Assembly: GCF_964036645.1 (NCBI RefSeq)
Contig: NZ_OZ038525.1
Span: 310,001-374,000 of the forward strand
DNA length: 64,000 nt
Direction of reading: 5' to 3'
Origin: Tenacibaculum sp. 190524A02b
GTDB taxonomy: Bacteria > Bacteroidota > Bacteroidia > Flavobacteriales > Flavobacteriaceae
Shown here in pieces: positions 1,498 through 27,319 of this stretch. Below the pieces are notes generated by a model. It saw nothing but the letters and a program-made list of their open reading frames with translations. It ran no database searches and was not told the DNA's origin. The translations under genes and the position numbers were made by a program. Each line of letters opens with the position of its first letter. The first letter of the stretch is position 1.

Positions 1498-2175
1498 ATG
1501 ACAAATATTAAACATTTATTTTTTGATTTAGATCATACGCTATGGGACTTTGAAAAAAACTCTGAACTAACCTTCAAGCAAATATTTCAAGAACAAAATC
1601 TTTCCTTAGACTTTAAAAAGTTTATTAAGGTGTATTCACCAATTAACTTGAATTATTGGAGATTATACAGAGATGATAAAATATCTAAAGAAACATTGCG
1701 CTATAAAAGATTAAAAGAAACTTTCGATGCATTGGAGTATGTAATCTCAGATAAATTAATTGAAAAAATTTCTGAAGATTATATAAATTATTTGCCTAAT
1801 TTTAATAACTTGTTACATGGAACGGTGGAGATGTTAGAATATTTAAAGAAAGAATATCAATTGCATATAATTACTAATGGATTTGAAGAAGTACAACGCT
1901 TGAAAATGGAAAAATCAGGCATTGCTAACTATTTTAACATTGTAGTCACCTCTGAAAGTGTAGGAGTCAAAAAGCCTAACCCACGGGTTTTTGAGTATGC
2001 TTTAACAGAAGCAAAAGCACAACCAGAAGAATCTATTATGATTGGTGATAGTTATGAAGCAGACATAATGGGAGCTTTAAATATGGGGATGTTAGCTATT
2101 CATCTTACAGAAGAAAAGAGTAGTAATGGTATAGCAACTATAAGCTCATTAACAGAACTAAAGCAATATTTATAG
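1498..2175 (+). CDS. yjjG: HAD-superfamily hydrolase, YjjG-type noncanonical pyrimidine nucleotidase
   Basis: 225 residues, the usual size for YjjG. HAD motif I is FFDLDHTLWD with nucleophile Asp10 and acid/base Asp12. Motif II is HIITNG near residue 121, the motif III lysine lies in the SVGVKKPNP region, and motif IV is MIGDSYEADIMGA. The helical cap between motifs I and II fits subclass C1. YjjG proteins dephosphorylate non-canonical and ordinary pyrimidine nucleoside monophosphates in the cytosol, a house-cleaning role. Substrate specificity cannot be read from sequence, so a general phosphatase of the same family remains possible. Confidence 0.85.
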   Translation: MTNIKHLFFDLDHTLWDFEKNSELTFKQIFQEQNLSLDFKKFIKVYSPINLNYWRLYRDDKISKETLRYKRLKETFDALEYVISDKLIEKISEDYINYLPNFNNLLHGTVEMLEYLKKEYQLHIITNGFEEVQRLKMEKSGIANYFNIVVTSESVGVKKPNPRVFEYALTEAKAQPEESIMIGDSYEADIMGALNMGMLAIHLTEEKSSNGIATISSLTELKQYL

Positions 2176-2184
2176 AGATTAAAC

Positions 2185-2260
2185 GTTTACAATTTACCTT
2201 CCCCTTCCACTCATATTCATGTTGTAAACATAACTAAAGCTAATTATTATGGTAATTAGC
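2185..2260. repeat. Two adjacent perfect inverted repeats in an intergenic region
   Basis: GTTTACAA (2185-2192) pairs with TTGTAAAC (2222-2229), and GCTAATTA (2239-2246) pairs with TAATTAGC (2253-2260). Neither is followed by a T-run, so they are not ordinary terminators. They sit just upstream of a TAnnTTTG box and could be operator sites or RNA structures. Confidence 0.6.
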
Positions 2261-2278
2261 CAATACAATTTTTGACCT

Positions 2279-2286
2279 TAACTTTG
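2279..2286 (+). promoter_or_regulatory. -7 promoter box (TAACTTTG) of the 2.3-5.0 kb operon
   Basis: Exact TAnnTTTG match 18 bp before the ATG of the lipoprotein gene. It would drive the three closely packed genes that follow. The -33 region is weak. Confidence 0.5.
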
Positions 2287-2303
2287 AAAATTAAGAAATA
2301 TAT

Positions 2304-2852
2304 ATGAGAAGATTTTTGTATGCCTTTTTGTGTTGCAGTATTTCCTTGCTACAACTAACTTGTGTAAAAGATTTGGATTTTGATCAGGCAAAAGATTTAG
2401 AGATTACACCAACTTTTAAAATAGCGTTGGCTCATTCAAGTATAGAGCAAACGCTTTTTGTAAGTCCTTCAGGAGCTGAAGTTCCATCTATAACAGATCA
2501 ATCTAATTTTTATGCGTTTGAGAACAGTATTACTAAAGATTTGACTAAAATTGAGTTAGATTTTGAAGTGAAAAACCCTTTTAATAGACGTTTTGTAATT
2601 GATTTTAGATTGCTAGATGAAAATGGGGGAGAAGCCTATGATATTCCTGCTTTAGAAATACCTGAAAATGCTCAGAAGTTTGAGCATAAGGAAGTGATTG
2701 ATGTGGTTAACAATCCAAATGTTTTAAATACTAAAAAAATTGAAGCAGTTTTTAGTTTACTTCCAAGTACAGATGGATCAATCATTGATATCAATGTAAG
2801 AAAAGTATTTAGTTTTAAGTCAGCAGGAACCTTTTATTTTAAGATAGATTAA
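2304..2852 (+). CDS. Putative lipoprotein, first gene of an envelope operon
   Basis: 182 residues. The N-terminus is a lipoprotein signal peptide: basic MRR, a hydrophobic stretch, and a lipobox LQLTC placing the acylated Cys at about residue 20. The remainder is soluble and beta-rich by composition, with no motif I recognise. Its stop overlaps the next start (TAATG), so it is co-translated with the DUF5723-like protein. The pairing suggests an envelope complex or accessory lipoprotein, but function is unknown. Confidence 0.75.
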   Translation: MRRFLYAFLCCSISLLQLTCVKDLDFDQAKDLEITPTFKIALAHSSIEQTLFVSPSGAEVPSITDQSNFYAFENSITKDLTKIELDFEVKNPFNRRFVIDFRLLDENGGEAYDIPALEIPENAQKFEHKEVIDVVNNPNVLNTKKIEAVFSLLPSTDGSIIDINVRKVFSFKSAGTFYFKID

Positions 2853-4240
2853 TGAGAAAGTTAGTAATTATAATAACGTTCCTTACTCTAGGAATAAAAT
2901 CAGTGTACGCACAAAATAAACAGATATTATATAATTTTGATGAAATACCACAAACTTTACTATTAAATCCAGGAACAGAAACTAATTATAGGTTTCATGC
3001 AGGTATTCCGTTACTTTCAGGAATTTCTATGAATTTTGGAGTTACTGGAGCTACTGTTGCGGATCTTTTTAGACAAGATGGAGTAGATTTTAATGTAAAA
3101 TATAGAAATGTATTAAATAAGTTAACAGCAGATGACTATGTGCAAATTCATTCCCAAATAGATGTATTGAATGGTGGGTATAGATTGAATGATAGGGATT
3201 ATTTAAGTGCTGGTTTTTATACAGAGATTGATGCGTATGCTACAGTTCCTAAAGATGTGTTAACTTTACTAAATGAAGGGAATGAAGCTTATTTAAATAG
3301 AAGTTTCTTAATATCTCAGGCAAATATTAAAGCAGAAGCTTTAGGAGTTTTACATGTTGGACTTACTAGAAAGCTAAGTTCTAAACTAACAGTCGGAGCA
3401 CGCTTTAAATTGTACTCAGGTATTGTAAATGTTACTTCAACGAATAATGCAGGAAGTTTTAGTACTAGGTTAGGAGAGGATAATATTTATGAACATTATT
3501 TGAATGGAATTAACGTAACAGGATATACGTCAGGTGTAAATAATGGTAATAATGTTGATAAGGAGTCGGATATTTCTGCTTCAAAATTATTAGGAAGATC
3601 TTTTTTAGGAGGAAATTTAGGTGTTGGATTTGATATTGGAATGACCTATCATTTAAATCCGCAAACAGAAATTACCGCTAGTTTATTAGATATTGGTTTT
3701 GTTAGTTATTCTGAGGATATTAGAAATTTTACTGTGAAAGGTAATTATATTTTTTCTGGTATTAATTTTCAATATGATAATACAAATCCCGATTATTGGG
3801 GAGATTTAGATAGAGATTTTAACTCAAAAGTAGTTAGAGAAGAAAATACAGAGTCTTATACTGTTATGCGACCTATAAAATTCAATAGTTCTATAAGACA
3901 TCAATGGGGGAAATCTAGAAATGAAGAAAGTTGTAGTGATATTTCTTATAAAGATTATTATAACAATGCAGTAGGAGCTCAGTTGTTTTCAGTAATAAGA
4001 CCAGTAGGGCCAAAGTTTGCTTTAACAGGTTTCTATGAAACAAGATTATTAGAAGGTTTAAAAACTAAAATAACATATACCATAGATGATTTTTCATATA
4101 GTAATGTAGGTATTGGGCTATCAGCAAAATTAGGAAAAGTTAATATATATGGAATGGTTGATAATTTATTAAAAGTTACCGATATTGCCGATGCACACAA
4201 TGCCTCTTTTCAATTAGGCTTTAATTTAATTTTTAAGTAA
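2852..4240 (+). CDS. DUF5723-like outer-membrane protein
   Basis: 462 residues with a Sec signal peptide ending near YAQ. The mature part has the flavobacterial pattern of NPGTETNYRFHAGIPLLSGISMNFG near the N-terminus, followed by many short amphipathic beta strands (for example LGVGFDIGMTYHLNPQTEITASLLDIGF), and ends in FQLGFNLIFK, a typical last barrel strand. This resembles the DUF5723 family of predicted outer-membrane barrels. It starts on the stop codon of the lipoprotein gene and is followed 4 bp later by another exported protein. The role is unknown; surface assembly or adhesion are only guesses. Confidence 0.75.
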   Translation: MRKLVIIITFLTLGIKSVYAQNKQILYNFDEIPQTLLLNPGTETNYRFHAGIPLLSGISMNFGVTGATVADLFRQDGVDFNVKYRNVLNKLTADDYVQIHSQIDVLNGGYRLNDRDYLSAGFYTEIDAYATVPKDVLTLLNEGNEAYLNRSFLISQANIKAEALGVLHVGLTRKLSSKLTVGARFKLYSGIVNVTSTNNAGSFSTRLGEDNIYEHYLNGINVTGYTSGVNNGNNVDKESDISASKLLGRSFLGGNLGVGFDIGMTYHLNPQTEITASLLDIGFVSYSEDIRNFTVKGNYIFSGINFQYDNTNPDYWGDLDRDFNSKVVREENTESYTVMRPIKFNSSIRHQWGKSRNEESCSDISYKDYYNNAVGAQLFSVIRPVGPKFALTGFYETRLLEGLKTKITYTIDDFSYSNVGIGLSAKLGKVNIYGMVDNLLKVTDIADAHNASFQLGFNLIFK

Positions 4241-4244
4241 GAGT

Positions 4245-4982
4245 ATGAAAAATATAGTATATCTGCTGTTATTGGCTACAACCATTACTTTTGGACAGAA
4301 GAAGTTAAACAATTATAAATATGTAATTGTACCAAAACAGTTTGAATTTGTTAGTAAAAATGATCAATACCAAACGAGTTCATTAACTAAGTTTTTATTT
4401 AAAAAATATGGGTTTAACGCTTATATGGAAAATGAAGACCTGCCAAAAGATGTTTTAAATAATAGATGTTTGGCTTTAACAGGAGATGTAATTGATGAGT
4501 CGGGAGCATTTACTACAAAAAGTGTAGTAGAGTTAAAAGACTGTAATGATAAGTTGGTGTACCGTTCTCAGATAGGAAAAAGTAAAAAGAAAGAATATAA
4601 AACAGCCTATCATGAGGCTATTAGAAATGCTTTTAGATCTATACAAGGTTTGCGTTACAAATACCAACCGTTAAAAGAAGATATAAAAGCGTCAGCAAAA
4701 ATATTACCAGCCTTAAAGAAAGTGATAGAGTTAAAAAATGAAAATGTTAAAAATGAAGTAATATCAACCAAAGAAACATTATATGCACAGCCAACAGCTA
4801 ATGGTTTTCAATTAGTAGATACTCAGCCTAAAAAAGTATTTGAACTTTTAAAAACAAGTATAAAAGATGTCTTTGTTTTAAAAACTAAAGATGGAATTTT
4901 GTTTAAAAGTAATGGTGTATGGTTTGCTGAGTATTATGAAAATGGCGCTAAAGTTTTAAAACAATATAAGATCAAATTTTAA
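4245..4982 (+). CDS. Conserved exported protein of unknown function
   Basis: 245 residues with a short signal peptide ending at TFGQ, so probably periplasmic. The first half (KYVIVPKQFEFV, then KFLFKKYGFNAYME) looks like an alpha/beta domain. After residue ~140 comes a charged linker, then a small C-terminal beta domain (KDVFVLKTKDGILFKSNGVWFAEYY). I know no function for this type. It is the third gene of an operon with the lipoprotein and DUF5723-like protein and is followed by a strong terminator, which supports a shared envelope process. Confidence 0.7.
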   Translation: MKNIVYLLLLATTITFGQKKLNNYKYVIVPKQFEFVSKNDQYQTSSLTKFLFKKYGFNAYMENEDLPKDVLNNRCLALTGDVIDESGAFTTKSVVELKDCNDKLVYRSQIGKSKKKEYKTAYHEAIRNAFRSIQGLRYKYQPLKEDIKASAKILPALKKVIELKNENVKNEVISTKETLYAQPTANGFQLVDTQPKKVFELLKTSIKDVFVLKTKDGILFKSNGVWFAEYYENGAKVLKQYKIKF

Positions 4983-5039
4983 ATAGCATGTGATAGCCAA
5001 AGGGTTAATAATCTGAAGTTATAAGTGCCTATTTATATT

Positions 5040-5069
5040 AAAAAAAGCAGTTGAAAAACTGCTTTTTTT
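5040..5069. terminator. Bidirectional rho-independent terminator
   Basis: A-run, GCAGTT stem, short loop, AACTGC and a T-run. The stem is about 12 bp. It lies between convergent genes and touches the stop codon of rarA, so it serves both strands. Confidence 0.85.
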
Positions 5070-6339
5070 AATACTTGTATTTACCTTTCCAACGTTGTTT
5101 TAAAACTTCTCTAAATTGGTTTTCTCTCGCATTATTACCAGGCTCATAAAGCTTTGTGTTTTGTATTTCATCAGGTAAAAATTCTTGAGAAACAAAATTA
5201 CCTTGGTAATTATGTGAGTATTTGTAATCCTTACCATAATCTAAATCACGCATTAATTTTGTAGGCGCATTTCGTAAATGTAAAGGAACTGAAAGATCAC
5301 CAGTAGTTTTTACCAAGTTTTGAGCTTCACCAATAGCCATATAAGAAGCATTACTTTTTGCAGAATTAGCTAAATAAATAGCACACTGACTTAAAATAAT
5401 TCTAGACTCAGGGTTTCCTATAACAGAAACTGCCTGAAAGGTATTGTTAGCTAAAATTAGAGCAGTTGGATTTGCGTTTCCAATATCTTCTGAAGCTAAA
5501 ATTAATAATCTTCTAGCAATAAATTTTACATCTTCACCGCCTTCAATCATTCTAGCCAACCAATATACAGCTGCATTTGGATCACTACCTCTAATTGATT
5601 TAATAAAAGCTGAAATTATGTCATAATGTTGCTCACCGGTTTTATCGTATTTAACCGTGTTTTTTTGAATTTTTTTGAGAACCAATTCATTGGTGATTTC
5701 AATTTCATCATCAGCAATTACTAATAACTCAAAAATATTAAGCAATTTTCTAGCATCACCTCCAGAAACTTGAAGTAAAGCATCTGTTTCTTTTAAGGTT
5801 ATTTTCTTAGAGGCTATTATTTCATCTTTTTCCATAGCTCTATGGATAAGAGAAATTAAATCGTTTTTATCAAAAGAGTTTAAAATATAAACTTGACATC
5901 GAGAGAGTAGGGCAGGGATTACTTCAAAACTTGGGTTTTCTGTAGTAGCACCAACCAAAGTAACCCAGCCTTTTTCAACTGCACCTAGCAAAGAGTCTTG
6001 TTGAGATTTACTAAATCTATGAATTTCATCAATAAATAAAATAGGATTCTTTTGTGTAAATAAACCACTACTTTTTTTAGCTTTTTCAATAACTTCTCTA
6101 ACATCTTTTACACCAGAACTAATCGCGCTTAATGTATAAAAAGGTCTTCCAGATTCATTAGCTATAATAGTAGCCAGCGTAGTTTTACCAATACCAGGAG
6201 GTCCCCACAAAATTAATGAAGGAATAATTCCTTGTTTTATATGATGTGTTAAAATACCTTCTTCACCTACTAAATGTTGCTGACTAATATAGTCACTAAG
6301 AGTTTTTGGTCGGATACGTTCCGCTAAAGGCTGCGTCAT
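5068..6339 (-). CDS. rarA: Replication-associated recombination protein A (RarA/MgsA AAA+ ATPase)
   Basis: 423 residues, the expected size. The N-terminal LAERIRPKTLSDYISQQHLVG is the family signature. Walker A is GPPGIGKT (about 46-53), Walker B is LFIDEIHR (about 101-107), and sensor 1 is GATTENPSFE. The C-terminal part carries the clamp-loader-like tetramerisation region (RGSDPNAAVYWLARMIEGGED). RarA acts at stalled replication forks and belongs to the clamp-loader clade. It is a single gene with its own -7 box. Confidence 0.97.
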   Translation of the reverse strand: MTQPLAERIRPKTLSDYISQQHLVGEEGILTHHIKQGIIPSLILWGPPGIGKTTLATIIANESGRPFYTLSAISSGVKDVREVIEKAKKSSGLFTQKNPILFIDEIHRFSKSQQDSLLGAVEKGWVTLVGATTENPSFEVIPALLSRCQVYILNSFDKNDLISLIHRAMEKDEIIASKKITLKETDALLQVSGGDARKLLNIFELLVIADDEIEITNELVLKKIQKNTVKYDKTGEQHYDIISAFIKSIRGSDPNAAVYWLARMIEGGEDVKFIARRLLILASEDIGNANPTALILANNTFQAVSVIGNPESRIILSQCAIYLANSAKSNASYMAIGEAQNLVKTTGDLSVPLHLRNAPTKLMRDLDYGKDYKYSHNYQGNFVSQEFLPDEIQNTKLYEPGNNARENQFREVLKQRWKGKYKY

Positions 6340-21085: not shown

Positions 21086-21880
21086 TTACATGTTTTCGTA
21101 GGCATGTTTTACAAGTTTAGCATTGTACTTTCTTTCTAATTTTCTAACAATAAAATGTCCAGTAGCCATGTCCTGAAAATGATCTATAAATAAAGTGTTG
21201 ATAATGGCGCCTCCAGCAGCTCCAACAATAGGTAATGATTGTGCTATAGTTTTTTCAGTAATCTGAACACCAAATTTTTCAGCAATTTTAGTAATAAATT
21301 TAAAAAATAAAGGAGTTCCTTCTTGGGCAATGCCTTGCTCGGTTATGTATTTGCTAACGTTAGTAATTGAATTGGCTAGAATAGTTCTTGTACTATAATA
21401 ACTAGATTCAACATTAGTTTTTTCTGTAGTTTCCTTTCCAAGAGCAAAAACTTCTAAACAAGCAAGTTTGGTTTCGGGCTTGTTTAAGGTTTCTCCATGA
21501 AATCGAGCTATATCAGCTATTGAGCGTAATATGATTGTAGTTGTAATAGGAAGTTCAAAAGCCAGCCCAGCTAAACCAAAAATTCCACCAATGGTTCCTG
21601 TTGCGCCAGCTGCAATTTTATGGAGCGTGTTGGTTGTTTTTTTTGAAGGCTGGTTATTAATGGTAAAAATAGCAGCATCAGTAGCTTTTAGTAATGAGTT
21701 TTTTGTGATATGACCTAGTTTAGTGCTAAAATTACTAGGTAAAAGCTTTAAGCCTTTTTCTATAGGGCTATCTAAATGTTGTGTTATTTTGGCAGCTAAT
21801 CCAGGGCTTTCTAATAATTCTTTAGCATGTTTTAACTCTTTTAGGTCTTTATCTGAAATAACATTTTTGGTTTGATTCAT
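21086..21880 (-). CDS. EcsC-family protein
   Basis: 264 residues. The central segment with Gly/Ala-rich helices (KIAAGATGTIGGIFGLAGLAFELPITTTIILRSIADIARFHGE) and the following KLACLEVFALG match the EcsC family, named after the third gene of a Bacillus ABC-transporter locus. A second Gly-rich stretch (SLPIVGAAGGAIINTLFIDHFQDMA) precedes the C-terminus. No signal peptide; probably membrane-associated from the cytoplasmic side. Biochemical activity is unknown. No transporter genes are adjacent. Confidence 0.85.
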   Translation of the reverse strand: MNQTKNVISDKDLKELKHAKELLESPGLAAKITQHLDSPIEKGLKLLPSNFSTKLGHITKNSLLKATDAAIFTINNQPSKKTTNTLHKIAAGATGTIGGIFGLAGLAFELPITTTIILRSIADIARFHGETLNKPETKLACLEVFALGKETTEKTNVESSYYSTRTILANSITNVSKYITEQGIAQEGTPLFFKFITKIAEKFGVQITEKTIAQSLPIVGAAGGAIINTLFIDHFQDMATGHFIVRKLERKYNAKLVKHAYENM

Positions 21881-22382: not shown

Positions 22383-22440
22383 TTACCAAGAGCATTCCCT
22401 ATGCATAAAATGAAGTGAATATTTATTGGTAGAATTAATA

Positions 22441-22473
22441 AAAAAACGCATTTATTATTAATGCGTTTTTTTT
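22441..22473. terminator. Bidirectional terminator
   Basis: 12-bp stem AAAAAACGCATT/AATGCGTTTTTT, 7-nt loop and T-runs on both strands, between the convergent 95-residue gene and the ATP-grasp gene. Confidence 0.9.
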
Positions 22474-22490: not shown

Positions 22491-23414
22491 TTAATTCATT
22501 AAATAATCTGCAAGAACATGTGATATTTTTTGACCAGTATGACTTTCGTAATAAGAATAACCTGGCATTGGGTTTACTTCAAAACAATAAACGTCTCCTT
22601 CATCGGTAAATCTTAAATCAATACCACTGAAATCTAGTTGTAGTGCAGCAGATACATTAATACAAGCGTTTTTTATGGTTTCTGGAATGGCAAAGGTTTC
22701 TAGTTCTGTAGTACCGCCATTTTTTCTAGCGTATCTATAGTCAACTCCTGTTGTGTGTATTTTTGTGGCTACTACTTCTTTGTCTATTACATGAACTCTA
22801 ACATCAAATCCTGATAGTTTTTTTTGAAATTGAACAGGACAAAAACGAATTTTTTCTAAACGTTCAGTGTCTAAAGGGTCAAATTCTTTTACTATAGAGC
22901 GAACTCCACTAATAGATTTGTAAATTACAGAGCCGTTTTTTTGATGGAAAGCAATGGCTTCTGTTGGGATGTTAGTAATTAGTGTGTTAGGTGTTTTTAA
23001 TCCATATCTTTTAATAATTTGAGCTTGATAGGGTTTGCTACTATTACTAAACATTTTACTGTGCCTATTTACTACTTTACTGTCTGTTACTTCTAACCAT
23101 TGGTATAAAGATTCGTGTACATTTCTAGAGTGTTCTTGTAAGTTTTGATTTTTATCTTTTACTTCAGGAATATTGGTTTCACTCATAAAGCGAGAGTATA
23201 CACTATCAAAGCTATTTAAATTATAGCTACAATTGGCTATATGTAATTCGCCTGTTGGTTTCTGATTTTTAAATTTCCAGTTAATTTGAATGTCTTCTAT
23301 TTGGCGCTGGTTAAAGATAACTACTTCTGCACCTTTATTGATAAGCGCATTTTTTACTTTGGCTATGGGAGCTTCACTTGGAATTCCACATAATAATACT
23401 TTACTAGTTTTCAT
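22491..23414 (-). CDS. RimK-like ATP-grasp ligase of an accessory cassette
   Basis: 307 residues. A pre-ATP-grasp domain (KVLLCGIPSEAPIAKVKNALINKG; SFDSVYSRFMSETNIPE) precedes a complete ATP-grasp fold: ATP-binding lysine region SVIYKSISGVRSIV, substrate loop QKKLSGFDVRVHVIDKEVVATKI, and the metal-binding GIDLRFTDEGDVYCFEVNPMPG. The family joins a carboxylate to an amine or hydroxyl via an acyl phosphate; relatives add amino acids to proteins (RimK) or cross-link side chains of peptides (graspetide ligases). It overlaps the upstream partner by 11 bp, so the two are translationally coupled. The substrate is not known; the neighbouring protease and small domain protein are candidates. Confidence 0.85.
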   Translation of the reverse strand: MKTSKVLLCGIPSEAPIAKVKNALINKGAEVVIFNQRQIEDIQINWKFKNQKPTGELHIANCSYNLNSFDSVYSRFMSETNIPEVKDKNQNLQEHSRNVHESLYQWLEVTDSKVVNRHSKMFSNSSKPYQAQIIKRYGLKTPNTLITNIPTEAIAFHQKNGSVIYKSISGVRSIVKEFDPLDTERLEKIRFCPVQFQKKLSGFDVRVHVIDKEVVATKIHTTGVDYRYARKNGGTTELETFAIPETIKNACINVSAALQLDFSGIDLRFTDEGDVYCFEVNPMPGYSYYESHTGQKISHVLADYLMN

Positions 23415-24090
23415 GGATAATGTGTTTTATAATGGCTACTAGTTTATCTCCATAATTAATAAGTGATGGAAAGGTATTGGCTTTTATAAAGTTTTTTTCG
23501 TCATTACTTACTGTAATTTCTAAGAGTGGTGTTTGGGCTAAGTTAGAAAGTTCAATACAGTTGTTGACTAATTGTTTGTTAATGCAATTGGTTATTATTT
23601 TTTTTCCAATTACGAGTATGTTTTTACCAATAGGTGTGTGTGTGTTATTATTGTTTACATTTTTAAATCCAGCAACATAGGCGGCTTTTGCCCATTGTTC
23701 TGGTGACCAAAATACACCGCTTAAACTGTAACCTATTGATGGGTTATATATTGGACAGCTTTCTTGGACTTGGTATAGCCAGCTCATTAAAAGTGCATTC
23801 ATTTCTGCATGAACGTACTGTTTTTCTACTTCTGCAGCTTTTTCCCATATTGGTGACTTAGGTATTTGTGTTCTGTTAAAAAGAAAGTTTAGATTTTTGT
23901 TAGATATTTCAACTCCTTTTTTTGTTTTTATATAAAAGCTGTTTTCATCTTCGTTAATTATTTGCTTCCATTCTTTAGCCATTAAAAGTTCTTCTGGACT
24001 AATTAATTCTATTGGGATGTTTTGTTTCTGTAAGGCTAAATAAAGCCATATAGCATCGTGATCTTGTGGGTGACTTAGTATTACGTTCAT
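23404..24090 (-). CDS. Degenerate ATP-grasp-like partner protein
   Basis: 228 residues. Order and spacing parallel the adjacent ATP-grasp ligase: a Rossmann-like start, NLNFLFNRTQIPKS (partner: FDSVYSRFMSETNIPE), a helix with HAEMNALLMSWLYQV (HESLYQWLEV), ENC-type NPSIGYSLSGVFWSPEQWAKAAYVAGFKN (NRHSKMFSNSSKPYQAQIIKRYGLKTPN), then a short NILVIGKKII strand and a C-terminus IKANTFPSLINYGDKLVAII where the ligase has CFEVNPMPG. The ATP-binding lysine lobe and metal-binding Glu/Asn are missing. I infer an inactive, shrunken paralogue acting as a regulatory or substrate-binding subunit. By sequence alone the match is weak but collinear. Confidence 0.65.
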   Translation of the reverse strand: MNVILSHPQDHDAIWLYLALQKQNIPIELISPEELLMAKEWKQIINEDENSFYIKTKKGVEISNKNLNFLFNRTQIPKSPIWEKAAEVEKQYVHAEMNALLMSWLYQVQESCPIYNPSIGYSLSGVFWSPEQWAKAAYVAGFKNVNNNNTHTPIGKNILVIGKKIITNCINKQLVNNCIELSNLAQTPLLEITVSNDEKNFIKANTFPSLINYGDKLVAIIKHIIHEN

Positions 24091-24108
24091 GAGTTAAGAG
24101 TTAAGTAA

Positions 24109-24144
24109 TCTTAAGAGTATTGTTGTTAAGCAATACTCTTAAGA
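24109..24144. other. Perfect 14-bp hairpin between the protease and ligase genes
   Basis: TCTTAAGAGTATTG pairs with CAATACTCTTAAGA around an 8-nt loop in the gap between two same-strand genes. On the minus strand it is not followed by a T-run, so it looks more like an mRNA-processing or stability element, or a partial attenuator, than a full terminator. Confidence 0.75.
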
Positions 24145-24153
24145 TAGGTTAGA

Positions 24154-25590
24154 TTACATGCTATCTGCAATGTCTTTATTCATCTTTTCTTGAGTTGCCA
24201 TAATGTCTTCTTCATTAGTTAAGGCTCCTGAAGATAAATCGGGTCTTAAATCTGATCCTATATAGGCGGTTAATGAAGATAACATTTCTTCCATTTGTGC
24301 TAATCTTTCTTCTATACTATTAGATCTTTTAATACCTGGGTTTATTGGATTGAAATCTCTAATTTCTCTAATTTTCCCTCCGTCAAAAGGTTTGTCTAGT
24401 TTGTCAGTTATTGGTTTATCAACCTTGTCTGGAATTAATCCTTTGTTGTCTGGTAGTTCTTTTCGAAGCTCTTTTTGGTATTCTTTTATTTCTTTTCGTA
24501 ATTCTTTTTTTAGTTCTTTTATTTCTTTTTTCTCTATTTTTTCAATTTTATCTTTTGTTTCTGCTTTTTCTAACTTCTCAGTTTTTAGTTCTTTGGTATC
24601 TTTTCTTAAATCTTTGAAGTCTTTAATAATACTCTTTGTAACTTTTTGGCAAATAGAAATATTTAATTCACTTAAAACAGCAGCAATAGGGTTAATGTAT
24701 GTGTACCCGGCATCATTACCTGCAAATAGTAGTCCGATTACTTTGTTGTTTGCATCTACCACAACAGATCCTGAATCACCACGTTTGCTAAATTTTGGAT
24801 TTACAGCGGTGTTTGGTCTGATACCAATTTGATTAGTTAGTGTTTTTACACCTAAGCTAGGACCGTAATTAACACTTACTGTAGCATTAATGGCATCTAC
24901 AAAACCTTCAGTTAATAGTGTGGTTCTTCCTCTTTTTTTAACAGGAGCGTTTAGTACAGCATTTGCTGTTCCTTTTACATCTCCTATATCAACAATAGAG
25001 CAATCACTTGGTCTTCCATTTAAGGTTGAAATGGCTCCATCTACTTTAGAGCTTAGTACTGCTCTTTGTAGAGCACCAACTCTATCAGTTCCAGGTGTAC
25101 CTGTGTCTACACGGCTTGGTTGGCACATAAAATCTCCAACATTCCATGTGTTATCTACGCACATTACATGGAAGTTACTTAATAAAGCAGGGTTGTTAGT
25201 AGCATTGTCTTTTACAATACATCCTAATGTACCAGTGAAAACTGAGCCTCCAATAACGCGTTCTGGTCCTATACTGATTCCTCCTTTTACTGTTGGGTAG
25301 GTTGTGGTATCTGCAAATGCAGAAATGTCTTGTAGTTTTTGAGCAAGCATTTGTGGGTATACTTCCATTTCAATGACATCTGTTTTTATACCGTTTATTG
25401 TTGTTGGTATTTTTTCTTTTTCACTAATATTTTTCTTTTTTTGTTTTACGTGTACTCGAATTGTAATTTCGTCTGTACGCTTACCATTACTGTATTTGTA
25501 GCCTACATCTACACCAGTTACCCCTTTTAGTTTAAATAAGTCTGCTTCTGCAGCTTCTTTTTGTACGATGATTTCGTCTAAATTCTTCAT
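24154..25590 (-). CDS. Trypsin-like (NAL1-type) serine protease with charged C-terminal tail
   Basis: 478 residues, no signal peptide. Residues ~1-75 form a small alpha/beta domain (VTGVDVGYKYSNGKRTDEITIRVHV; IPTTINGIKTDVIEMEV) common to NAL1-like bacterial proteases. The chymotrypsin-fold core follows: catalytic His in LLSNFHVMC (near 142), Asp in SSKVDGAIS (near 186) and Ser in KRGDSGSVVV (near 273). From ~315 the chain becomes a Lys/Glu coiled coil (KELKKELRKEIKEYQKELRKEL), then DKVDKPITDKLDKPF and an acidic Met-rich end. It is preceded by a gene encoding only the N-terminal domain and followed by the ATP-grasp pair. Probably cytosolic or released without a signal; its target is unknown. 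Confidence 0.85.
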   Translation of the reverse strand: MKNLDEIIVQKEAAEADLFKLKGVTGVDVGYKYSNGKRTDEITIRVHVKQKKKNISEKEKIPTTINGIKTDVIEMEVYPQMLAQKLQDISAFADTTTYPTVKGGISIGPERVIGGSVFTGTLGCIVKDNATNNPALLSNFHVMCVDNTWNVGDFMCQPSRVDTGTPGTDRVGALQRAVLSSKVDGAISTLNGRPSDCSIVDIGDVKGTANAVLNAPVKKRGRTTLLTEGFVDAINATVSVNYGPSLGVKTLTNQIGIRPNTAVNPKFSKRGDSGSVVVDANNKVIGLLFAGNDAGYTYINPIAAVLSELNISICQKVTKSIIKDFKDLRKDTKELKTEKLEKAETKDKIEKIEKKEIKELKKELRKEIKEYQKELRKELPDNKGLIPDKVDKPITDKLDKPFDGGKIREIRDFNPINPGIKRSNSIEERLAQMEEMLSSLTAYIGSDLRPDLSSGALTNEEDIMATQEKMNKDIADSM

Positions 25591-25638
25591 TGTTTTTAAC
25601 TTTTAATTTGATTATGGTTTTAGTTGTTAGCTCGGTTT

Positions 25639-25878
25639 TTATAAAGGTTTTATAATTCTGGTTTCTATAATTATGGGAATGTTGTTAAGTGATGTTGGAA
25701 TGTTGAGTTGTTGGTGAGTAACATTAGGGTTGTTTACTAATACTCTTACGCATAGTTCATCTGTGTATGTATTTCCTTTTTTATAGGAAGCGATTTCAAT
25801 ACCTGTAAAGAATTTTGATTGAATTACTTTTTGATTAATAGTGGTAAATACCTCTTTAGCGATTTCTAGGTTTTGCAT
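25639..25878 (-). CDS. Free-standing copy of the protease N-terminal domain
   Basis: 79 residues: FTGIEIASYKKGNTYTDELCVRVLVNN then IPTSLNNIPIIIETRI. This lines up with residues ~22-75 of the following protease (VTGVDVGYKYSNGKRTDEITIRVHVKQ, then IPTTINGIKTDVIEME), with the same strand order and Ile-Pro-Thr turn. It has no signal peptide and no other domain. It may act as a partner, inhibitor-like prodomain or modification substrate. It is the first gene of the cassette, with a -7 box upstream and a 48-bp gap to the protease. Confidence 0.75.
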   Translation of the reverse strand: MQNLEIAKEVFTTINQKVIQSKFFTGIEIASYKKGNTYTDELCVRVLVNNPNVTHQQLNIPTSLNNIPIIIETRIIKPL

Positions 25879-25962: not shown

Positions 25963-26104
25963 GAAAGGAATGAAGGATGTTTTTAGAGTGTATCTACCTG
26001 ATTTTAATGATGTTTTTAGATGTTTTTGAAGCAGGGTTTTTCCTGTGACTTATTATTGTAAGGGAAGGGTAGGGAAGAAAGGATAAAAGGAAAGGTGAGA
26101 TCAC

Positions 26105-26556
26105 TTTTTGAGTTGCTTACAGTCTTTTTTGGACTGCTTAGCTTGCTTTTTGAGTTGCTTACGGTCTTTTTTGGATTGCTTAGCTTGCTTTTTGAGTTGC
26201 TTACGGTCTTTTTTGGATTGCTTAGCTTGCTTTTTGAGTTACTTACGGTCTTTTTTGGGCTGCTTAGCTTGCTTTTTGAGTTGCTTACAGTCTTTTTTGG
26301 ATTGCTTAGCTTGCTTTTTGAGTTGCTTACGGTCTTTTTTGGGTTGCTTAGCTTGCTTTTTGAGTTGCTTATAGTCTTTTTTGGACTGCTTAGCTTGCTT
26401 TTGAGTTGCTTATAGTCTTTTTTGGATTGCTTAGCTTGCTTTTTGAGTTGCTTACGGTCTTTTTTAGATTGCTTAGCTTGCTTTTTGAGTTGCTTACAGT
26501 CTTTTTTGGATTGTTTAGCTTGCTTTTTGAGTTGCTTACGGTCTTTTTTAGATTAC
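26105..26556. repeat. 42-bp tandem array (~10.7 copies) with a 1-bp frame break
   Basis: Eleven successive units start with GAGTTGCTTA (one GAGTTACTTA) at exact 42-bp spacing from 26110 to 26529, except for the interval 26362-26403, which is 41 bp (four T instead of five). Units differ by a few substitutions. 42 bp is 14 codons: on the minus strand one frame reads QAKQSKKDRKQLKK per unit, and it meets TGA right after the array (26102) and TAA just before it (26556). No ATG lies in that frame. I interpret it as a decaying repeat-protein gene or a minisatellite. It lies between the acetyltransferase gene and the cassette. The rest of the ~810-bp gap (25879-26104 and 26557-26692) shows no gene. 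Confidence 0.9.
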
Positions 26557-26692: not shown

Positions 26693-27319
26693 TTATTGTT
26701 CATTCATCAACTTTTGAAAAAGGTCTATATATTGTCCTACATGAAAACCATCTAGGAGAGCATGGTGTACATGAACAGACATAGGCATTTCTTTTATACC
26801 ATTTTGTTCTGTCATTTTTCCAAAGGAAATTTTTGGGCAGCTATCATTAAAAGTAAAATTTCTAGCGTGAGATAAAGAGGTGAAATCAATCCATGGTATT
26901 GAAGAGTAATGAATCACGTTTTCACCAGAAACAGCAGGGATTAGATCTTTACTGTTTTGAACATTTTCTATTTCTTTTTTAGCTTCTTTTTCAAAATTGG
27001 TATAATCTTTAAAGTAGTTAATGTATGAAAAGCCAAAGGTGTTATTGGGTCTGCTTATAGTAGCAGAAGCATTTACTTTGTCAAAAATAATGACTTCGTC
27101 ATTTATAATTCTGTATTTAAAAGATTCTATACTGTTTGCAGCTACTAATGATTTGTGTAAATAGTACAGAAAGAAGGATTGTAGATTTTCTTTACAATAT
27201 TTATAAGCATTAGTGCAGTCTATGGTAACAGTTACACCAAAGAAGGGTTCCGTAAAATTTTTGAAAAAATTATAGATGTCTTTTCGATTCCAATTGTTTA
27301 GATCTATTTTGTTAGCCAT
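26693..27319 (-). CDS. Chloramphenicol acetyltransferase-like (CatA-type) O-acyltransferase
   Basis: 208 residues, close to the ~215 of type A CATs. It starts with the family-like KIDLNNWNRKDIYNFF, includes FTVTIDCT-like and FKYRI..DEV segments, a central IPWIDFTSLSHA, PKISFGK, and the catalytic signature HVHHALLDGFHVGQ with the active-site His and structural Asp-Gly. CatA enzymes transfer acetyl from acetyl-CoA to chloramphenicol; many chromosomal homologues in Bacteroidota have unknown acceptors. Monocistronic. Resistance cannot be inferred from sequence alone. Confidence 0.87.
   Translation of the reverse strand: MANKIDLNNWNRKDIYNFFKNFTEPFFGVTVTIDCTNAYKYCKENLQSFFLYYLHKSLVAANSIESFKYRIINDEVIIFDKVNASATISRPNNTFGFSYINYFKDYTNFEKEAKKEIENVQNSKDLIPAVSGENVIHYSSIPWIDFTSLSHARNFTFNDSCPKISFGKMTEQNGIKEMPMSVHVHHALLDGFHVGQYIDLFQKLMNEQ

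Follow-up and report, generated by a model that had tools for sequence, protein, structure and literature searches.

A three-gene module in which a pair of ATP-grasp proteins may cross-link the lysine- and acid-rich tails of peptidases and other proteins

In those parts of Makarova et al. 2022 (PMC8939145) that deal with ATP-grasp branches 7 and 8, precursors could not be predicted for either branch, most of their loci hold peptidases from several families with no relationship to one another, a truncated and inactive ATP-grasp is typical of branch 8, and the peptidases are proposed to supply peptides from elsewhere. The related passages of Carter et al. 2026 (PMC13097080) describe graspetide group 32, whose diverse neighbouring proteases are read as maturation or resistance factors, together with corallotide, which has five Lys-Asp isopeptide repeats mapped as Lys9-Asp13, and a rosaritide synthetase that requires a partner protein. 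For the synthetase ThfB, the relevant sections of two further papers report that it tolerates relocation of the leader to the C-terminus (PMC13003496) and that it acts on whole proteins, which it cyclises or cross-links (PMC12291112). Here we describe a locus in Tenacibaculum sp. 190524A02b (contig NZ_OZ038525.1, positions 310,001 to 374,000; this stretch of 64,000 nucleotides is called the window) that encodes a tailed trypsin-like protease, a degenerate ATP-grasp protein and a complete ATP-grasp ligase. In our reading the tailed peptidase is itself the precursor, its tail being the core and its C-terminal motif the recognition element.

A preliminary description of this DNA had proposed a four-gene cassette on one strand, and the listing of open reading frames (ORFs) bore this out: four minus-strand genes occupy 22491-25878, in transcription order a domain protein of 79 amino acids (aa), the protease, the degenerate ATP-grasp and the ATP-grasp ligase, the last two overlapping by 11 base pairs (bp). 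A contig scan of one genome per species (84,980 species) gave 305 pattern stretches, among them 262 relatives, of which the best 80 were fetched as loci (L numbers) with flanks of at most 6 kb; being the top-scoring relatives, they are a non-random sample. In 76 of the 80 loci, across many phyla, the ligase gene is immediately preceded by a degenerate homologue, and because the pair recurs so often it is not a chance arrangement. For three of the four loci without it (L033, L064 and L098) the contig starts at or shortly before the ligase, and in the fourth, L077 from Microcystis, the ORF at the same position matched weakly (expectation value, E, 0.4). The upstream protein, for which a script chose the longest ORF on the same strand with its end close to the degenerate gene (L079 and L093 were replaced by hand), was compared in these 76 loci and the window, 77 in all, with the pick for L066 in a wrong frame. 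Judged by sequence, the wider module is three genes: a tailed protein, a degenerate ATP-grasp and a live ATP-grasp. The co-occurrence expected for the cassette held across phyla for these three; a single-sequence search detected the free 79-aa domain in trypsin-like loci only.

With peptidases of unrelated families in the loci, a graspetide-type ATP-grasp, and a truncated, apparently inactive ATP-grasp in 76/80 of them, the module very probably corresponds to the branch 8 (and perhaps branch 7) loci, as far as the published description allows the comparison. The preliminary description knew of no published system with exactly this set; the set is nevertheless partly described, in that loci combining an ATP-grasp ligase, peptidases of unrelated families and a truncated ATP-grasp were already reported, in the relevant parts of that paper without a precursor (PMC8939145). 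Unlike there, the neighbouring protein is proposed here to supply the precursor, through its tail and C-terminal motif. Graspetide group 32 shares the diverse neighbouring protease families, read as maturation or resistance factors there and as the substrate here; from the passages on that group (PMC13097080), identity of the two is a guess.

The upstream proteins share a motif near the C-terminus, with the consensus HFIxxxLRPDLSxGALxxE. The pattern [FY][IV]..RP[DENS][LVT] was found there in 74 of the 77, window included, and with all cargo types seen (cargo being what precedes the tail and motif). It missed L092, which has a variant, L066, where a profile found the motif in another frame, and L063. 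The profile has 34 columns and 70 rows (69 relatives and the window), leaving out the near copies L022, L062 and L070, L083 with its motif far from the end, and L063, L066 and L092 without the pattern. When searched against 49 whole genomes (E up to 0.01), it matched 47, once in each apart from the genome of L039, which had two matches; in three genomes (G094, G096 and G098) the best 150 candidates were scored, G098 being one of the two without a match. By comparison of coordinates, all matches but one fell inside the fetched locus, and the exception, on a second contig of the L033 genome, was a tail protein of 165 aa immediately followed by a degenerate gene that is cut off. The genome of the window has a single occurrence of the motif, near the C-terminus of the protease (E 2.4e-15). 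Among the loci outside the profile rows and near copies (L033, L063, L064, L066, L077 and L092), four of six were found, the two others being L063 and L092.

Motif and ligase also travel together at larger scale. Among 395 genomes of the window's phylum, the motif (E up to 1e-5) and the close ligase (E up to 1e-40) picked the same three, with the two about 1 kb apart in each; besides the window's genome these hold an M6 peptidase (L125) and a protein with a Rho_N domain (L126), each of which carries the motif and a Lys/acid tail. Among 398 genomes of the phylum of L028, the motif occurred in the L028 genome only, the ligase not having been searched there. RPDL was considered as a known motif and set aside, 'ATP-grasp' and 'RPDL' being found together in no open-access full text; nor was a published report of the tail or the motif found in open-access full texts, a scope that leaves out supplements and most subscription papers.

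A charged tail precedes the motif in 71 of the 74 motif-bearing upstream proteins. That of the window protease has 24 Lys, 3 Arg, 13 Glu and 7 Asp in 82 aa, and the pooled tails are 25% Lys, 19% Glu, 8% Asp and 3% Arg, with Ser and Thr together at 4%. At least 60 residues in strongly charged windows were counted in 67/76 upstream proteins vs 40/544 flanking ORFs. In the 40 loci above 60% guanine-cytosine (GC) content the Lys:Arg ratio was 862:107 in the tail vs 408:1337 before it in the same proteins, and in 31 other loci 657:88 vs 592:432. The charged windows of flanking ORFs gave 105:2212 (high-GC loci) and 102:100 (others), but these ORFs were called mechanically and surely include spurious ones, Arg-rich where the DNA is rich in GC; the same-protein control is the sounder one. 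The share of Lys in Lys plus Arg was higher in the tail than in the rest of the protein in 61 of 62 cases. Since charge alone would permit Arg, a tail that prefers Lys fits a requirement for Lys amines.

The order of residues is also regular. Lys-Lys and acid-acid neighbours occur at 0.07 and 0.08 of expectation, an acid directly after Lys (+1) is 2.1-fold enriched relative to shuffled tails, the pooled tails show a period of 3, and the counts of Lys and acid per tail correlate at 0.91, partly as an effect of length. The composition of the tail looks selected, and its features fit a need for Lys amines paired with acids. Stapling specifically at i,i+4 was considered and dropped, as it is inseparable from the tail repeat. 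The idea of a ligase-protease-substrate module with the charged protease tail as the likely substrate gains support from the tail, the motif and their co-occurrence with the ligase.

The window ligase matched RimK in Pfam (PF08443, E 3.7e-12). Its top NCBIfam model was TIGR04187, an ATP-grasp ribosomal peptide maturase (126 bits, cut-off 350), followed by MvdC, MvdD and the RimK family, all below their own cut-offs; the scores under these cut-offs suggest a separate subfamily. Against solved structures, the profile of the ligase family gave 78-138 bits for graspetide-type chains vs 35-43 bits for chains of RimK and alpha-L-glutamate ligases; RimK chains reached 39 bits vs 138 for the top graspetide-type chain, and the rimK_fam model 71.6 bits with a cut-off of 143.4. 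We take 7drm to be the plesiocin enzyme and 5ig8 and 5ig9 to be microviridin enzymes. The grasp-with-spasm type fits poorly, its GwsG-type model TIGR04192 giving 43.5 bits vs a cut-off of 230 (no search of the loci was aimed at a SPASM partner). Lys166, Asp266, Glu279 and Asn281, presumably the nucleotide and metal ligands of ATP-grasp, are invariant in 37 aligned sequences. On both the top model and the structure chains, the ligase is nearest to graspetide synthetases, not to RimK. The ligase is split over two frames in L038 (5998-6942) and L100 (5998-6960), through sequencing error or decay.

The RimK match and the acid-rich tail would also suit a ligase that extends the tail or the motif with amino acids, or with some other small amine or acid, in the manner of RimK or PGM1, forming no internal cross-links; RimK-family ATP-grasp ligases are generally known to perform such elongation. 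The profile nevertheless favours the graspetide-type chains, and additions to acids need no preference for Lys over Arg, yet the tail has a strong one, so we regard simple addition as unlikely.

The product of the degenerate gene matched no Pfam family. The preliminary description had called it a shrunken ATP-grasp relative, and profile-profile comparison agrees: a profile of 71 degenerate sequences aligned with the live-ligase profile over 240 columns at 13% identity (probability 97.6%, E 2.7e-12). In a second profile alignment, two gaps inside the degenerate protein span about 52 and 24 ligase residues; lost with them are the stretch around Lys166 and the DYRYA stretch of the ligase, and the positions of Asp266 and Glu279 are Thr193 and Lys203 in the window's degenerate protein. 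These alignments suggest a paralogue that has retained its two ends but lost segments in between, and it is very likely catalytically inactive.

Taken as a whole, we consider it rather probable that the locus is a stand-alone modification module, in which the ATP-grasp pair cross-links the Lys/acid tail of the cargo under the guidance of the C-terminal motif. The cargo ends in a Lys/acid-repeat tail, then a stretch that is probably helical, then the motif FIxxxLRPDLSxGALxxE. The live ATP-grasp, which probably forms a complex with its degenerate paralogue, would read the motif as a 'follower' and activate Glu and Asp side chains of the tail as acyl phosphates, and tail Lys side chains would then attack to give intramolecular isopeptide (lactam) links, as in graspetides. 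An active protease, or another cargo, would thereby acquire a cross-linked tail, which may stabilise, anchor or regulate it. Candidate purposes are shielding of the Lys-rich tail from proteolysis, a rigid spacer, anchoring, or inhibition in cis; the non-peptidase and tail-only members described below argue against a purely inhibitory role.

In corallotide, plesiocin and microviridin the leader precedes the core. Their clusters likewise contain an ATP-grasp synthetase, with repeated cores in corallotide and plesiocin, and Lys-acid isopeptides occur in corallotide and one Glu-Lys amide in microviridin, comparable to the Lys-acid links proposed here, as far as the relevant parts of the sources go; these clusters yield peptides, whereas the present module places a C-terminal motif on full-size enzymes and adds a degenerate partner gene. 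C-terminal recognition works in the fuscimiditide synthetase ThfB, where it was engineered, in the sections describing it (PMC13003496), and here it would apparently be natural.

Several observations weigh against cross-linking of the tail under guidance of the motif. Known graspetide precursors are mostly short with an N-terminal leader, and charged tails without covalent modification exist. The adjacent protein resembles a precursor in having a conserved motif and a variable acid/Lys core, but its motif is C-terminal and its length varies between 138 aa (uncut) and 1422 aa. In just 37 of 72 tails is 3, 6 or 9 the strongest Lys-Lys period, and the Lys-acid enrichment at +4 (1.5-fold) is unremarkable, with +5, +8 and +11 equally high. 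L063 has no motif by pattern or by profile. Three motif-bearing proteins (L069, L070 and L076) have no charged tail by our threshold; L069 and L070 are two records with identical coordinates and ligase sequence, and in L069 the 140 residues preceding the motif still include 19 Lys and 1 Arg. L076 carries the motif with no Lys in the preceding 140 residues, which means that the motif or the segment behind it could be the modified part, and at least 35 residues run from the start of the motif to the end of the protein in 49/74.

Some of the ends behind the motif, for example among those of L036, L038 and L094, are Lys/Asp-rich (such as AKQAKDNKD), and such a stretch could be a second core.

Cargo labels come from sequence clustering, which also groups tail-rich proteins by composition, and from Pfam on part of the members (5 of 8 M6, 6 of 11 and 2 of 4 in two subtilase clusters, and 4 astacin-like; the rest were assigned by clustering). 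Peptidases are the commonest cargo: 18 trypsin-like proteins including the window's, subtilase clusters of 11 and 4, 8 M6, four confirmed astacin-like proteins (L056, L067, L075 and L085) and one M64 (L096); L077, outside the 77, matched a C13 peptidase (E 4e-6). A lectin-like cargo in L039 scored 25.8 bits with B_lectin, below the cut-off of 32.4, and in a Streptomyces/Kitasatospora group of 8 two upstream proteins, then two in another Pfam run, had no match. Twenty of the 77 were labelled tail-only, with no cargo domain (16 clear, one cut by a contig end, and L050, L066 and L084 doubtful), and four of the tail-only proteins matched no NCBIfam model at E 0.01.

The prevalence of peptidases accords with the published proposals, in the parts cited above (PMC8939145, PMC13097080), by which the peptidase would make or mature a peptide from another protein, or serve maturation or resistance, with the tail as a docking spacer only. 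However, exactly one place in 46 of the 49 genomes bears the motif, and both places in the L039 genome lie within the locus, although a motif-free peptide would escape this search; moreover, the tail-only proteins and the selected look of the tail composition are hard to square with a mere spacer, and this explanation seems to us very unlikely.

On a tree of 79 ligases (L038 and L100, with split ligases, were dropped; bootstrap was unsettled, with 26 forks unresolved), the cargo labels required 18 changes, compared with a minimum possible of 8 and a shuffled mean of 46.3. Cargos therefore cluster but have been swapped several times, and tail and motif persist while the cargo is exchanged. A constant C-terminal element under switching cargo could also be a sorting or assembly tag, which the ATP-grasp pair would join to a partner through an intermolecular isopeptide, like sortase-type tags. 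The non-peptidase cargos (the sub-threshold lectin-like one of L039 and the Rho_N-domain protein of L126) agree with such a tag, as does the window protease, in which a simple hydrophobicity scan, a crude test of secretion, found no hydrophobic N-terminal signal segment; but no flanking gene family recurred in more than 7 of the 80 loci within the fetched flanks, partners encoded elsewhere not having been sought, and we think a tag of this kind improbable. Returning to intramolecular cross-linking, its widest form would be a general covalent tail system that builds an isopeptide ladder on folded enzymes of six peptidase families (trypsin-like, S8, M6, M12A, M64 and C13), which we take to represent four clans, and on lectin-like and other domains; this we advance tentatively, as a possibility somewhat short of an even chance.

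In L039, two motif-bearing proteins (subtilase, 1634-3613; lectin-like, 3672-5174) share one ligase pair. Small companion ORFs track the cargo: besides the free domain of trypsin-like loci, a second family occurs in 7/8 M6 loci, a third in 4/4 loci of the smaller and a fourth in 3/11 of the larger subtilase cluster. These ORFs of about 80-100 aa (L061 6937-7233, L060 6984-7256, L088 2490-2762) have no Pfam family above cut-off, and might serve to inhibit the peptidases or to assist folding. L126 encodes a possible oxygenase next to its tail protein (2791-3486, sub-threshold WelO5 match), with a homologue near the Myxococcus locus L084 (6906-7616, minus strand); an oxygenase also occurs in corallotide clusters, in the passages on them (PMC13097080).

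For the window protease itself, Pfam matches were weak and sub-threshold (Nal1_C 18.2 bits, NAL1_N 17.2, Trypsin_2 16.1), and the match to the solved serine proteinase 2sfa was weak too (E 8.2e-4). Its assignment as a trypsin-like protease is upheld by His141, Asp184 and Ser273 (in GDSG), which we take to be the catalytic triad and which are invariant in 18/18 aligned trypsin-like proteins (the window and 17 relatives); in the alignment the triad is intact. The domain said to be shared by the 79-aa protein and the protease N-terminus was confirmed by BLASTP (48 aa aligned, E 1e-4), and comparisons among relatives made it plainer: by phmmer, the free domain of L021 matched L021's own protease at E 8.7e-8 and that of L036 the protease of L052 at E 7.5e-31. 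The suggestion that this domain is the recognition element or leader did not survive, as a free copy occurs in 10 of the 18 trypsin-like loci (counting the window), and a single-sequence search of the 80 loci detected none next to any other type of cargo; the domain is seen with one cargo type only, and the C-terminal motif is common to all.

A protein with 98% identity to the window ligase is recorded for Tenacibaculum sp. 190524A02b. Only the window's own genome among 97 Tenacibaculum genomes searched has a close ligase (E up to 1e-40), although a 77% identical protein is listed from another Tenacibaculum. In the ligase tree the window ligase groups with two Algibacter sequences and one from Nitrosomonas, which suggests horizontal transfer. 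A plasmid or phage origin was considered and dropped, the window ligase having no match in the plasmid and phage collections (E 1e-30 and 1e-20).

The features of the locus are listed in Table 1. Terminator-like consensus matches numbered 5 in the region vs 3.0 on average after shuffling. Immediately upstream of the operon, a 42-bp unit is repeated 10.8 times at 26104-26554, and its minus-strand frames are Lys-rich and interrupted by frame changes. The neighbours at 21086-21880 (EcsC-family) and 26693-27319 (chloramphenicol acetyltransferase-family) lie outside the module as defined.

Table 1 Features of the Tenacibaculum locus, in window positions
Feature	Position	Strand	Basis
Free 79-aa copy of the NAL1_N-like N-terminal domain of the protease; accessory of the trypsin-like cargo type	25639..25878	-	ORF, similarity to protease N-terminus, relatives
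Tailed trypsin-like serine protease, 478 aa; cargo, proposed substrate of the ligase	24154..25590	-	ORF, Pfam, structure match, alignment
Lys/Glu/Asp-rich tail, about aa 313-394 of the protease; proposed core (modified region)	24409..24654	-	Composition
Conserved C-terminal motif region, aa 429-462 of the protease, with YIGSDLRPDLSSGALTNEED at its end; proposed recognition element	24205..24306	-	Motif profile
Degenerate ATP-grasp paralogue, 228 aa; proposed catalytically inactive partner	23404..24090	-	Profile match to live ligase
Complete ATP-grasp ligase, graspetide-synthetase type, 307 aa	22491..23414	-	Pfam, NCBIfam, alignment, profile vs structures
Terminator-like hairpin, 13 pairs, behind the operon	22440..22472	-	Consensus match only

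A C-terminal motif beside a repeat tail would supply the missing precursor for one of the two precursor-less ATP-grasp branches. If this is true, graspetide chemistry on full-size enzymes with C-terminal recognition would be a new role for this chemistry, and the tail and motif may offer a transferable tag for protein cross-linking.

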